A DNA stretch of 47,671 nucleotides from Nitrospirales bacterium (lineage in GTDB: Bacteria > Nitrospirota > Nitrospiria > Nitrospirales > UBA8639): NCBI GenBank assembly GCA_029261295.1, contig JAJDBP010000037.1:1-47671 (forward strand). Reading direction: 5' to 3'. The notes below the pieces were generated by a model that had not been told where the DNA came from, searched no databases, and worked only from the letters and a program-made list of their open reading frames with translations. A program made the position numbers and the translations under genes. Positions 5,347 to 37,608 of the stretch are shown one piece after another (the stretch's first letter is position 1; each line of letters opens with the position of its first letter).

Positions 5347-5751
5347 ATGAAATCCATGATAAATTTCACGAAGACGATGCTGATCATGCCAATCCACTGG
5401 CAGGCCTGGTTAGGCCTACTCGTGTCGGCCAACATCGTCACCCCGCTCTTCTTTATCCACACGTTGGAAGCACAGGTCGTCTTGGTGATGGGAATTGGCG
5501 GCTTGCTGATCATATCGGTCATTTTCAGTATGAAGGGCTTCGTCCGTTTGATGGGGATCGGCCATATTGGCTGGCTGCCAATGGTGTTTTGGCTGGGAAC
5601 AAAATTGGAACACGCTCCGATTGATAGCCCTTTTGGATATTGGATGCTGGCCGTCATTATCTTGGACAGTCTCTCATTGTTCATCGACATCGCCGATGTC
5701 CTTCGATATGTCAAAGGCGAGCGCGAACCATTTCTCGCACCCCCTGCCTAA
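5347..5751 (+). CDS. Small multi-pass membrane protein of unknown function
   Basis: A 134-residue protein with four predicted membrane segments (about residues 18-35, 42-62, 72-88, 98-116). Motifs that stand out are H-W-Q-A-W-L-G-L-L, G-H-I-G-W-L-P-M-V-F-W-L-G and a charged tail. I do not recognise a named family. AAAAGGAGG precedes the ATG. It ends the co-directional run that begins with YHS, and a 122-bp hairpin repeat starts at the very next base after its stop codon, perhaps ending the transcript. Confidence 0.6.
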   Translation: MKSMINFTKTMLIMPIHWQAWLGLLVSANIVTPLFFIHTLEAQVVLVMGIGGLLIISVIFSMKGFVRLMGIGHIGWLPMVFWLGTKLEHAPIDSPFGYWMLAVIILDSLSLFIDIADVLRYVKGEREPFLAPPA

Positions 5752-5873
5752 CAGGATGTTGAAAAATTCTACCAGCGGCGTTCTCGACCCTTTGCCGTGC
5801 TCACGTACTTCGCGTACGCTCCGCTCGCCAAAGGGCCTGGGGCCTTGCTGGACAAGTCTTTTTGAACATCCTG
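5752..5873 (+). repeat. Dispersed long-hairpin repeat, copy 1
   Basis: A 122-bp imperfect palindrome beginning at the base after the stop codon of the gene at 5347. The outer arms AGGATGTTGAAAAA and TTTTTGAACATCCT pair except for one G-G mismatch. Inner pairs include CCAGC with GCTGG, CCCTTTG with CAAAGGG, and a central CGTAC/GTACG with a 5-nt loop. The reverse complement of 37004-37122 is the same element. It may serve as a 3'-end processing or termination structure, or be a MITE/REP-like repeat. Confidence 0.85.
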
Positions 5874-5996: not shown

Positions 5997-6290
5997 TCAG
6001 GTAATCTTGTCTAACACGCCCTCAATCTCATCTTCTGTAAAGGCTCGTAGCGTTTCGGTGCGCACATTCCCCTTGGAACATCCCCCCATCATGACGGCAG
6101 CGGCTGTGGCCTCATCGGGAGCGTCGAACACAATGACCCCGTCATACCGACCCATCGTCCAGTAAATATTTTTGACGGCCCCTCCCGCCGCCTGGATTCT
6201 ATTTCTAAAGTCCGTCGCACGTTTCCCGGTGTTGATCACATCATGTACACCTTGTTCCGTCCACGTGAACAGCGTAATAAAGGTTGGCAT
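5997..6290 (-). CDS. GYD domain protein
   Basis: A 97-residue protein matching the GYD family: it starts with M-P-T-F-I-T-L-F-T-W-T-E-Q-G and carries the signature G-R-Y-D-G-V-I-V-F-D-A-P-D-E (family consensus G-x-Y-D). It has a compact ferredoxin-like alpha/beta fold with no known catalytic residues; members are of uncertain function. GGAGGTAGATC precedes the ATG on the minus strand. It is divergent from the VOC gene at 6517 across a 226-nt region that should hold promoters for both. It stands alone on this strand here. Confidence 0.85.
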   Translation of the reverse strand: MPTFITLFTWTEQGVHDVINTGKRATDFRNRIQAAGGAVKNIYWTMGRYDGVIVFDAPDEATAAAVMMGGCSKGNVRTETLRAFTEDEIEGVLDKIT

Positions 6291-14642: not shown

Positions 14643-17157
14643 CGACACAAATACGTCAAACGATGCTGCAGCATTGTTTCACGCTGCTCTGGATACGGTT
14701 GGAGAAGGCATCATTACGATTGATTCTACCAGTACCATTGTCGTGGTAAACCAAGAAGTTCAAAATATTTGGGGCTACACTCGAGATGAACTCATTGGTC
14801 AGAGCATCCAACTCCTTATGCCAGAAAAATTCCGAGAGCGTCATGCCGCTGGGTTCAAACGATATACAGAAACTGGAGTACCGCATGTCATGGGGACTCG
14901 AATTGAGCTGGAAGGCCTCAGGAAAAATGGGGCCGTGTTTCCCCTAGAGATTCGAATGGCAGAAACGACAGTCGGCGACCGCCTGCTGTTTACCGCAGCG
15001 GTTCGTGACGTGACAGATCGCAAGCTAGTCGAAGCGGCACTTGAAAGACGCCATTATATTGAAGATCAGATTGCATCAATATCAACAAAGTTTATTAACC
15101 TCCCGTCCAATGAGATTGATACAGGCATCATCGATGCACTTTGCACGATTGGCCAATTGACCAACGTTGATCGATCTTGGGTTGCCCTACTGACAGAGGA
15201 CAAGCAGTACCTAAATTTCACCCATGAGTGGTGTGCTGAAGGGATTGCCCTCACGCATAGTAATCTTCAGCCAATAGCCGTAGATACGACTCCTTGGGCA
15301 ATGGAACAATTCAGACGGAATGAAACGGTATACATCCCCCGCGTGGCTGACCTGCCGCCCGAAGCCAAGATCGAAAAAGAAAATTTCCAGACCTATGAAG
15401 TCCAATCGGCCATCATGGTTCCCATCGTGTATCGGAGATCACTGATGGGCATCGTCTCTTTTGACTCCGTTCGTTTGGAAAAAATATGGACGACCGATGA
15501 CATGGCTCTTCTTCGCATAACTGGGGAGATCTTTGCCAACGCTCTTGAACGCAAGGAGACCGAAGAGGCAATAGAATGCCTCATGCACCGCAATGAATTA
15601 ATCTTACGGTCGGCAGGAGAGGGAATTTATGGAGTAGACTTGCAAGGGAATATGACTTTTGCCAATCCAGAAGCAGCACGTCTCATTGGATGTTCCGTGG
15701 AGGAGTTAATTGGCAAACCCCAGCACGCTATTCTGCATCACACCAGATCCGATGGAACACCCTATCCACCAGAAGACTGCCCTATTTATAAGGCCTTTCG
15801 AGATGGTGCCGTCCATCGCATCGAAGATGAAGTCTTTTGGCGCAAAGACGAGACCAGCTTTCCCGTGGCGTATACCAGTACGCCTATTCGACAAGACGGA
15901 GAGATTGTCGGAGCCGTGGTGACCTTTAAGGATATTACCGAGCGCAAGCGAGAGCAGGAGATTCTGGAGAATTCTATTTCCTTATTGAGTGCAACTTTGG
16001 ATTCAACCAACGATGGAATACTCGTCGCTAACAGAGAAGGGCGTGTCGTCAACTTCAACCAGGTCTTTTTGGATATGTGGGGAATCTCGACAACCGTTGA
16101 GGCTTCCCAGGATCATACGCAATTGATGACACAGGTTCTTGACCAGTTACTAGACCCTGAACACTTCTCTCGGAGGTTGAAGGAAATCTATTCCAACCCA
16201 GATACGGAAAGTTGTGATGTCATCGAATTTAAGGATGGTCGAGTATTCGAACGATATTCACGGTCACAACGGATTGGAGGAAAAAGCGTTGGGAGAGTCT
16301 GGAGTCTGCGTGATGTTACAGCCCGCAAACATGCAGAGGAATTCGCACAACAGTCATATAACGAATTAGAACAAAAGGTGGAAGAACGGACGAGGGAACT
16401 TCGACAGAAACAAGCCCAACTGGTTCAGGCGGAAAAAATGGCCTCGTTGGGGCAACTCGTCGCAGGTGTCGCCCATGAAATCAATACCCCTCTTGGGGCG
16501 TTAAAAAGCAACATTGATATCTTTATACGCTCCGTGCATAAAATCAAAGATCTGATGTTTGATCCGAAGGTGCCTCAGGAACTTCGTGAGTCTCCTGAGG
16601 TCACCAAACGTTTCGCAAGTATTGAAACGCTCAATGCCCACAATCAAACGGCCATAGATCGCATCGTGAAGATCGTCAATAGCTTGCGAAAGTTCGCACG
16701 CCTTGACGAGGCAGAACTGGACGAAGTCGATATCCACGAAGGGTTAGAAAATACCCTCATCTTGGTGCAGCACGAACTCAAGAACCGAGTCGATGTGGTG
16801 AAAGACTATGGGAAGCTCCCCTTTATCAAATGCTATCCAAATCAACTCAACCAGGTCTTCATGAATGTACTCGTGAATGCCAGCCATGCCATCGAACACG
16901 AAGGGAAAATTTTCATTCGTACTCATCACAACCAAGAATGTGCGATGGTCGAAATTCGTGACACTGGAAAGGGGATTTCCCAGAAAGACCTACAACGAAT
17001 CTTCGATCCAGGATACACGACGAAGGGCTTTGGAGTGGGCACCGGACTCGGCCTCTCGATCGTCTATCAAATTATGAAGGACCACAAAGGGAAAATTGAG
17101 GTGGAAAGTGAATTAGGCCAGGGCACGACATTCAGAATAATTCTGCCAATTTCATAA
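14626..17157 (+). CDS. PAS-GAF-PAS-PAS hybrid-sensor histidine kinase (soluble)
   Basis: An 843-residue kinase with no membrane segments. Domains in order: PAS (about 15-130, G-E-G-I-I-T-I-D and D-V-T-D-R-K), GAF (about 150-300, with W-V-A-L-L-T and V-P-I-V-Y-R-R-S-L-M-G), PAS (about 320-440), PAS (about 450-575), coiled coil, then the kinase core. His617 in G-V-A-H-E-I-N-T-P is the phosphorylated residue. The ATPase has N-A-S-H-A-I, D-T-G-K-G-I and G-T-G-L-G-L-S-I. ATGs at 14626, 14632 and 14635 are all possible. It overlaps the CNB gene and is followed 72 nt later by a receiver, its probable partner. The signal sensed is unknown. Confidence 0.92.
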   Translation: MGMMPNDTNTSNDAAALFHAALDTVGEGIITIDSTSTIVVVNQEVQNIWGYTRDELIGQSIQLLMPEKFRERHAAGFKRYTETGVPHVMGTRIELEGLRKNGAVFPLEIRMAETTVGDRLLFTAAVRDVTDRKLVEAALERRHYIEDQIASISTKFINLPSNEIDTGIIDALCTIGQLTNVDRSWVALLTEDKQYLNFTHEWCAEGIALTHSNLQPIAVDTTPWAMEQFRRNETVYIPRVADLPPEAKIEKENFQTYEVQSAIMVPIVYRRSLMGIVSFDSVRLEKIWTTDDMALLRITGEIFANALERKETEEAIECLMHRNELILRSAGEGIYGVDLQGNMTFANPEAARLIGCSVEELIGKPQHAILHHTRSDGTPYPPEDCPIYKAFRDGAVHRIEDEVFWRKDETSFPVAYTSTPIRQDGEIVGAVVTFKDITERKREQEILENSISLLSATLDSTNDGILVANREGRVVNFNQVFLDMWGISTTVEASQDHTQLMTQVLDQLLDPEHFSRRLKEIYSNPDTESCDVIEFKDGRVFERYSRSQRIGGKSVGRVWSLRDVTARKHAEEFAQQSYNELEQKVEERTRELRQKQAQLVQAEKMASLGQLVAGVAHEINTPLGALKSNIDIFIRSVHKIKDLMFDPKVPQELRESPEVTKRFASIETLNAHNQTAIDRIVKIVNSLRKFARLDEAELDEVDIHEGLENTLILVQHELKNRVDVVKDYGKLPFIKCYPNQLNQVFMNVLVNASHAIEHEGKIFIRTHHNQECAMVEIRDTGKGISQKDLQRIFDPGYTTKGFGVGTGLGLSIVYQIMKDHKGKIEVESELGQGTTFRIILPIS

Positions 17158-35885: not shown

Positions 35886-36926
35886 TTACACGATACGTTT
35901 ACGCCAATAGCCCCAATAGGCCGTCCCTACCAAGCTTGAACCAGCGGTCAAACCCGTTGTCCCGATAATGCCATACACATCTCGCCGTGCCACCTTTACA
36001 GATTCATCGGCCTGCAAAATATCGCGAGAAACCGACAAGGCTTGTAGCGTTCGGATCCCAATTAAAAGAGGCCACATACAGGCCAATCGTAACCGAACCT
36101 GTCGCCGAGGAAGGGCCATAGTATACCCCCAACCTTGATCCAGGTGGTCTCGTGCTTCGTGAATGAGTTGCCGAAACACCGGTCGAAATTTCTCACTTGA
36201 AGAAGGATCTAGCAGTTGTTCAGGACTAAGATCGGCCTGGTTAAGTAACGTCTTGGGGATATAACATCGACCGTTTGATAAGTCTTGTGGTAAATCCCTT
36301 AAAATATTCACCATCTGAAGTCCTTTTCCAAAACGAATCCCCATGGGGATCATGGTGGATCGGTCCCATTGCCGCATTCCTGGCAAATGAGCGCACATCA
36401 TTTTAGTCCAGAACTCACCCACGCAACCAGCTACGGCATACGTGTAAAATTCAAAATCAGAGGCATCTTGTAAGGCAGACACAGCATTTCCGCTTTTCTG
36501 AGGAAATTGCTGAAGGTCAAATTCCATTCCCCCAATAAGGATAGAAATCACCTGAGCAATGTGAGCACGATCAACATGGGGGAATCCGAGATAAATTCGA
36601 AAACATTGTTCCAGCTTTTCCAATAATCTTCGTTCATCTGGATTGGGTTGCTTTGTAATGACTTGCGCCTGAATTTTTTGAATTTGGGACCATTCAGGAT
36701 TATCCTTCGCGAGTTGCCGTTTTAACTCTTGTAAAGACTGCAGTCGGATAGCATCATCCAATTCTCCAGTATCCGCAATGGTATCCGCCGCACGCGCAAA
36801 CAAATACGCAAGACCTATTTGAGATCGAACGGCTTGAGGCAAAATAGCGAGGGTGAGATAAAACGATCGGGAAACGCCTTTGAGCACATCTCCCAACAAC
36901 ACTCGATCCGATGAAGATAGAGACAT
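35886..36926 (-). CDS. Squalene/phytoene synthase family protein
   Basis: A 346-residue head-to-head prenyl synthase. The first Asp-rich motif is A-R-A-A-D-T-I-A-D-T and the second is N-I-L-R-D-L-P-Q-D-L-S-N-G-R-C-Y-I-P, both intact. S-R-S-F-Y-L-T-L-A-I-L-P marks the N-terminus, more like squalene synthase than bacterial phytoene synthase. A C-terminal hydrophobic stretch could anchor it. It probably makes squalene or a related C30 product, perhaps for hopanoids; no partner genes are in the window. It has an ATG start without a strong site. Confidence 0.88.
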   Translation of the reverse strand: MSLSSSDRVLLGDVLKGVSRSFYLTLAILPQAVRSQIGLAYLFARAADTIADTGELDDAIRLQSLQELKRQLAKDNPEWSQIQKIQAQVITKQPNPDERRLLEKLEQCFRIYLGFPHVDRAHIAQVISILIGGMEFDLQQFPQKSGNAVSALQDASDFEFYTYAVAGCVGEFWTKMMCAHLPGMRQWDRSTMIPMGIRFGKGLQMVNILRDLPQDLSNGRCYIPKTLLNQADLSPEQLLDPSSSEKFRPVFRQLIHEARDHLDQGWGYTMALPRRQVRLRLACMWPLLIGIRTLQALSVSRDILQADESVKVARRDVYGIIGTTGLTAGSSLVGTAYWGYWRKRIV

Positions 36927-37003
36927 ACGTTATGGATTGAAATATTCAAACACTAGGGTAAAAAGCAATATTATGGATATGACGACAGACACTAAGAACA
37001 GAA

Positions 37004-37122
37004 GAAATGCTCAAAAATGCTGTCCAGCAAGGCCGCAGGCCCTTTGACGAGCGGAGCGTACGTTAAGTACGTGAGTACGGCAAAGGGGCGAGAACGCCAC
37101 TGGCAGCCTTTTTCAGCATTTC
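37004..37122 (-). repeat. Dispersed long-hairpin repeat, copy 2
   Basis: Read on the minus strand it is the same 119-bp element as at 5752-5873, including GGCGTTCTCG, CCCTTTGCCGT and GTACGCTCCGCTCG. It begins 1 nt after the stop of the cupredoxin gene. Its outer arms (GAAATGCTGAAAAA / TTTTTGAGCATTTC) differ from copy 1 at four pairs, all compensatory, and keep the same G-G mismatch. Confidence 0.85.
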
Positions 37123-37123
37123 C

Positions 37124-37543
37124 TTACTGAACGATGAGACGACCTTCCATACCTTCCTCACGATGGGTGGGGAAAAAGAGTAATTGCTTATCACAATAAA
37201 AGGGATAGTTCCCTGGCTCTTTCAAAGTCAGCGTATGAGTCTGGCTGTCTCCACTCGAAATATCGACATCTAACACTCGCGTCCCGTTCGGATCATCCAA
37301 TAAAAAATTATGAGGAACGAGGAAAGACTGGTTATGTAATATCAGTGTAAACGTTTCACCCACATTGACCGTAATTTCAGAAGGAGAAAACACATAACTT
37401 TCCATATCAACAACAATTTCCCTGGAATTAGCTACGTCTGTCCGAGTTGAAGATTCTTGGGAAACCGCTATGCTGGGGAGGCCAAAAATAATAAAGGAGA
37501 AAGCCAACTTCAATAAGAATGGTGTATAATACGAAAAGGACAT
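37124..37543 (-). CDS. Secreted cupredoxin-domain protein
   Basis: A 139-residue blue-copper-like protein. A signal peptide covers residues 1-28 (cleavage near A-V-S-Q). The mature domain has the type-1 copper ligands H78 (P-H-N-F), C117 (F-Y-C-D-K), H127 (P-T-H-R) and M132 (G-M-E-G). It is likely a periplasmic electron carrier or copper-binding protein. The ATG at 37543 is chosen because GGAGGG lies 8 nt upstream; an ATG at 37561 would add six residues before the signal. The hairpin repeat follows its stop directly. Confidence 0.88.
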   Translation of the reverse strand: MSFSYYTPFLLKLAFSFIIFGLPSIAVSQESSTRTDVANSREIVVDMESYVFSPSEITVNVGETFTLILHNQSFLVPHNFLLDDPNGTRVLDVDISSGDSQTHTLTLKEPGNYPFYCDKQLLFFPTHREEGMEGRLIVQ

Positions 37544-37608
37544 GTCATCCCTCCAAGTCAAAATTATTTTCTATGATAGCGATTTCCAAAGGAATGGTCA
37601 CCTGATTC

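Follow-up and report, generated by a model that had tools for sequence, protein, structure and literature searches.

The two long hairpins in the window, which is the whole 47,671-nucleotide stretch of DNA that we analysed, are copies of a small, non-coding, MITE-like element of Nitrospirales, as demonstrated by its target duplications, by an empty site and by its wide spread. We think it probable that the element is a MITE whose hairpin became an RNA element acting at the 3′ ends of genes.

The hairpins and the element to which they belong

Hairpins were confirmed at both positions named in the original prediction, and each begins right after the TAA stop of a same-strand gene. The folding z-scores are −5.9 for copy 1 and −5.6 for copy 2; none of 200 shuffles was as stable, and each hairpin is approximately 20 kcal/mol more stable than its shuffled versions. 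The features of the two sites are as follows.

5347..5751, + strand: gene upstream of copy 1, encoding 134 aa without a Pfam match; the TAA stop at 5749-5751 lies directly before the hairpin
5752..5873, + strand: copy 1 hairpin, apparently of the CAGG end type (CAGGATG...CATCCTG); hairpin only, with no recognisable tail
5997..6290, − strand: gene for a GYD-domain protein, downstream of copy 1 and convergent
35886..36926, − strand: squalene/phytoene synthase gene, downstream of copy 2
36928..36932, − strand: right copy of the 5-bp target duplication TAACG at copy 2, placed by alignment with the insertions in G005 and G006
36933..37001, − strand: copy 2 tail, ending in the degenerate right terminal repeat TTCAATCCA, located by aligning it to the insertions at the same locus in G005 and G006
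37002..37124, − strand: copy 2 hairpin, GGG end type (GGAAATGCTG...GAGCATTTC); the model match takes in one flanking base at each end
37122-37126: left duplication at copy 2, eroded to TAAGG and intact in G005
37124..37561, − strand: cupredoxin-like gene upstream of copy 2, with its stop directly before copy 2

Copy 2 is a full-length, old MITE inserted between two genes. Its hairpin and tail together span 191 bp (36933-37123), the commonest length in the family. Other genomes of the genus supplied 16 orthologous loci; in 14 of these, no element is present and only 2-5 nt separate the stop of the cupredoxin-like gene from the start of the squalene/phytoene synthase gene. An element of approximately 190 bp lies between the two genes in the window's own genome, in G005 and in G006, and TAACG is found to the right of all three insertions. 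Copy 1 looks like a hairpin-only derivative of the sister (CAGG) end type, an assignment made by arm sequence only. The orthologue of its upstream gene in G009 is without the hairpin, and, as judged by this empty site, native sequence resumes approximately 10 nt past the copy 1 hairpin.

In the relatives, the hairpin constitutes the left two-thirds of an element of approximately 191 bp that is bounded by terminal inverted repeats. The left flanks of 130 copies were unrelated apart from an AT-rich bias; the right flanks of these copies contained a conserved tail of approximately 68 nt whose final sequence, TTATTATTCAACACTCCC, is the left end GGGNNTGTTGAA in inverted form. The terminal inverted repeats of the GGG type are GGGNNTGTTGAA on the left and GGGAGTGTTGAA on the right (reverse complement), and those of the CAGG sister type are CAGGATGCTGAAAAA and CAGGCTGCGGAAAAA. 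Perfect 5-bp target duplications flanked 60 of the 110 copies with a recognisable right end, as compared with 0.8% of random pairings, and 128 of 249 such elements in a larger set. Most elements are 188-215 bp long, with a mode of 191 bp. A parallel element of approximately 199 bp, found in another family of the order, carries 4-bp duplications of the YTAG type that are perfect in 12 of 20 cases (16% by chance). The target preference is roughly palindromic, and the element is short, is present in many copies and has no open reading frame of its own. It has three of the features of a MITE, namely, terminal inverted repeats, a target-site duplication and a short, non-coding, multicopy sequence. 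The original prediction had viewed the hairpin as a selected fold rather than a decayed insertion sequence. This opposition was not supported: what forms the outer arm is the terminal inverted repeat of a mobile element, MITE-like and flanked by target duplications. Its ends were not matched to those of any known insertion sequence.

When the target duplication matched at 4 or 5 of its 5 positions, the two ends of the element were of opposite type at positions 4-5: TC or GC on the left occurred mostly with AG on the right, AA or AG on the left mostly with NC on the right, and identical types were never seen. The transposase may require the ends to differ. One locus, L187 (G010:C1, about 16134-16220), is missing the whole hairpin and has both ends together with a perfect ACAAG duplication.

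The window's genome holds approximately 21 copies of what is one orientation-specific family. The family was found in 41 of 41 genomes of a sample of nearest relatives, with 1 to at least 86 copies in each (81 in G010). Of 148 genomes drawn evenly across the phylum, 49 matched; these comprised nearly the whole order, two further members of the class and, elsewhere, weak hits. The named contigs carrying the core were overwhelmingly from Nitrospirales or Nitrospirota, which points to that order as the source of the window. No Rfam family matched the hairpin at gathering score, only tRNAs being matched in the window, and plasmid and phage collections yielded no match to the element. A full-text literature search, with most subscription journals outside its coverage, retrieved no paper describing it. 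Four copies of the window's genome (L012, L016, L017 and L021) have in common a palindromic insert of approximately 34 nt, CCTGCCTTCGCCGGAGCGGCTTCGCGCAGGCAGG, in the 5′ arm, which is shortened in L021; copies therefore multiply as units. Another insert of 20-30 nt, CCCTTCGGCATGACTCAGGGCAGGAC, occurs in the 3′ arm of L134-L146 (G010, G014 and G019), where small palindrome-like pieces seem to be nested in the hairpin.

Pairing between the hairpin arms

Alignment of the arms of the two window copies (CAGGATGTTGAAAAA...TTTTTGAACATCCTG versus GGAAATGCTGAAAAA...TTTTTGAGCATTTC) bore out the four two-sided changes with pairing kept on which the original prediction was built, namely, A-T to G-C, G-C to A-T twice and T-A to C-G, as well as the central G-G mismatch in both copies. 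A fifth difference was found at the outermost pair, where C-G is replaced by G-T (wobble). The compensatory differences are thus real, but for the most part they distinguish two end-type subfamilies and are not changes in place; the arms of copy 1 and copy 2 differ because the two copies look like two end types.

The covariation extends to the family. Among 67 copies, 19 pairs showed two-sided changes (shuffled mean 10.4), and the total of such changes was 141, as compared with 37.1 in shuffled alignments and at most 40 with slid partners. The covariation score was 0.178, against 0.071 for shuffled alignments and no more than 0.047 with slid partners, and standard pairs occupied 93.0% of the paired cells versus 86.3% after shuffling. 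The same pairing result was obtained with 15 copies of the window's own genome. In each of the end types GGG-TC, GGG-GC, GGG-AA and CAGG-AT, the inner arm changes along with the end and pairing is kept. At the variable dinucleotide, the inner arm matches the left arm in 133 of 145 elements, and the left and right ends have it in common in 0 of 172 (shuffled mean 12.1, minimum 3 in 5000). Because the ends are never alike at this dinucleotide and the arms nearly always are, the covariation is between the hairpin arms and is not a by-product of similar ends.

One could envision that the match between the arms is kept by neutral template switching (quasipalindrome correction), which would require no selection for folding, and the excess of two-sided changes over wobble intermediates at the variable pairs is in keeping with such a process. 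However, the inner arm is unlike the true end at position 10, which generates the G-G mismatch seen in all but a few of 118 copies, and this mismatch is also kept in the CAGG type; a mismatch conserved in this way argues against simple copying between arms. A T-C mismatch likewise persists in about half of the copies. Mismatches would be erased by correction; in addition, unpaired sites evolve faster than paired ones, and few double changes are seen at orthologous sites (see below). We therefore consider template switching to be quite improbable.

Placement behind stop codons and constraint after insertion

Where the gene upstream of the hairpin end is on the same strand, the distance between that end and the stop is −1 to +2 nt in 44 of 124 cases, and the opposite element end is so placed at opposite-strand genes in 6 of 137 (p = 9e-11 for the difference), counts that are somewhat inflated because some orthologous sites were counted repeatedly and that depend on gene ends taken from a simple open-frame call. 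The corresponding count for elements of the CAGG type was 11 of 20 (−1 to 2 nt). The stop codons used were TAA (34), TAG (16) and TGA (8). Because the target preference is roughly palindromic, one-sided placement requires either selection or an oriented insertion bias. The stop-adjacent share was 13 of 60 among copies that keep their duplication versus 27 of 53 among duplication-less copies, and this rise with age points to selection.

A run of five or more T residues follows the hairpin in 252 of 306 cases and an A-run precedes it. The GC-rich stem followed by a T-run has the form of an intrinsic terminator, although a simple terminator scan, which does not cover stems this long, lists none here. 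About half of the stop-adjacent copies reside between co-directional genes, many of them in former tight junctions, of which copy 2 is an example, with the next gene approximately 72-99 nt beyond. This argues against a strong terminator, which would be harmful at such positions.

At 21 independent orthologous insertions, identity was 91.3% in the hairpin, 83.1% in the tail and 88.4% in the left flank, and the hairpin exceeded the tail at 19 of the 21 sites (p = 1.6e-4), in a set that was gathered by the hairpin model and hence favours conserved hairpins. The copy 2 site, gathered by its gene, shows the same pattern, with identities of 0.84-0.85 in the hairpin and 0.66-0.72 in the tail when compared with G006 and a near-identical named contig. 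The pairs L108/L150, L108/L019 and L008/L276 were excluded, as their left flanks match poorly and they may represent separate insertions. Paired sites changed at a rate of 0.072 as compared with 0.119 for unpaired sites. Most arm changes at orthologous sites, however, break a pair (77 one-sided breaks), which indicates that selection on pairing in place is weak. Only 10 double changes were observed, with pairing kept in 6 (4.8 expected); the strong covariation therefore lies mainly between element types, and the constraint in place is moderate. Preservation of the folded form, as originally predicted, is nonetheless supported by covariation far above the controls and by a hairpin that changes more slowly than the tail.

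Mobilization and possible roles of the fold

A search of three whole genomes and of 1.5 Mb of fetched loci for an autonomous transposon with ends of the GGG type detected none, and this is why we use the label MITE-like. Among the 100 of 118 G010 end sites that were listed, none was associated with a transposase having these ends. The only autonomous candidate, L215 (G010), proved to be an IS110-family element inserted inside a copy, where it splits the right arm of the hairpin, and L337 is an 855-bp span without an evident transposase gene. At L024 (G000:C19), a Y1 (RAYT-like) transposase gene lies between different inverted repeats (GGTGTCAGGAACC / GGTACCTGACACC), and a partial Y1 gene in L025 has a similar repeat nearby.

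The hypothesis that we favour is that a transposase, presumably a DDE enzyme acting by cut-and-paste, moves a non-autonomous element of approximately 191-199 bp. The long hairpin consists of the left terminal repeat paired with an inverted copy of it that lies inside the element, and the fixed G-G mismatch sets this internal arm apart from the true end. As part of the transcript at a gene's 3′ end, the hairpin might be useful, or at least tolerated; with its GC-rich stem, the A-run before it and the T-run after it, it could act as a two-way intrinsic terminator or as a 3′-end stabiliser of mRNA. Copies inserted hairpin-side-first behind a stop codon would then persist longest, the tail and right end decaying and the hairpin staying.

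An alternative scenario, which we regard as possible but rather unlikely, is that the hairpin serves transposition. In single-stranded or cruciform DNA, the left end would fold onto the inner arm and thereby be marked or shielded, the mismatch would bar the inner arm from use as an end, and the placement at stop codons would reflect tolerated insertions only. Several observations are in line with this idea: the inner arm tracks the left terminal repeat through changes in end type and duplication length and always differs at position 10, the variable dinucleotide is never the same at the left and right ends, few G-U intermediates occur at variable pairs, and the covariation lies between element types, which is the level where transposition selects. 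A role in transposition, however, does not account for the longer survival of the hairpin than of the tail in old copies, or for the fact that only the hairpin side adjoins stop codons, and the hairpin-deleted copy with a perfect ACAAG duplication in G010 also speaks against it, although the deletion may be later. Movement of a REP-like element by a Y1 (RAYT) transposase seems to us scarcely credible. Y1 transposase genes are present in the genome and both the hairpin and the intergenic habit resemble those of REPs, but target duplications of 4 and 5 bp do not fit single-strand transposition by Y1 enzymes, no such hairpin occurs at the Y1 gene loci, and an unrelated repeat, GGTGTCAGG, brackets one of the Y1 genes.

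The transposition role of the fold and its role as a 3′-end RNA element are compatible. Tentatively, the left transposon end might always be paired with an internal, mismatched copy of itself, so that the fold is kept while end sequence and duplication length are exchanged (5 bp for GGG, 4 bp for CAGG); the fold would serve transposition and, after insertion, would function as a 3′-end RNA element behind stop codons across the order.

ERIC (IRU) elements resemble the element described here in being imperfect palindromes of approximately 125 bp in transcribed intergenic regions, and they are not known to resemble it in sequence. A further difference is that here a longer element, flanked by target duplications of 4-5 bp, contains the hairpin, which has no match in Rfam. 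Bacterial MITEs have been reviewed (PMC10969869) and, like this element, are short and non-coding, with terminal inverted repeats, target duplications, many copies and a stable foldback. Here, however, the foldback is a left-end hairpin with an internal third copy of the end, rather than a pairing of left with right end, and the hairpin arms covary while the two ends stay unlike. SPRITE of Streptococcus pneumoniae (PMC10969869) is likewise dispersed and similar to a Rho-independent terminator, but it belongs to another phylum, and the hairpin here is terminal in a longer element and adjoins stop codons. REP elements with RAYT transposases (PMC3733652, PMC12306157) are also extragenic palindromes behind genes with possible roles at mRNA 3′ ends; in contrast, this element exceeds the 20-40 bp of REPs several-fold in length, has target duplications and shows no link to the Y1 genes of the genome.

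If the hypothesis that we favour is correct, the family would be a clean natural case, in nitrite-oxidising bacteria, of a transposable element that ships a ready-made 3′-end RNA structure to genes. The family also makes it possible to test how the fold of a DNA or RNA, as opposed to its sequence, can survive a switch of transposon end type, and with many orthologous and empty sites available, the domestication of single copies is measurable.
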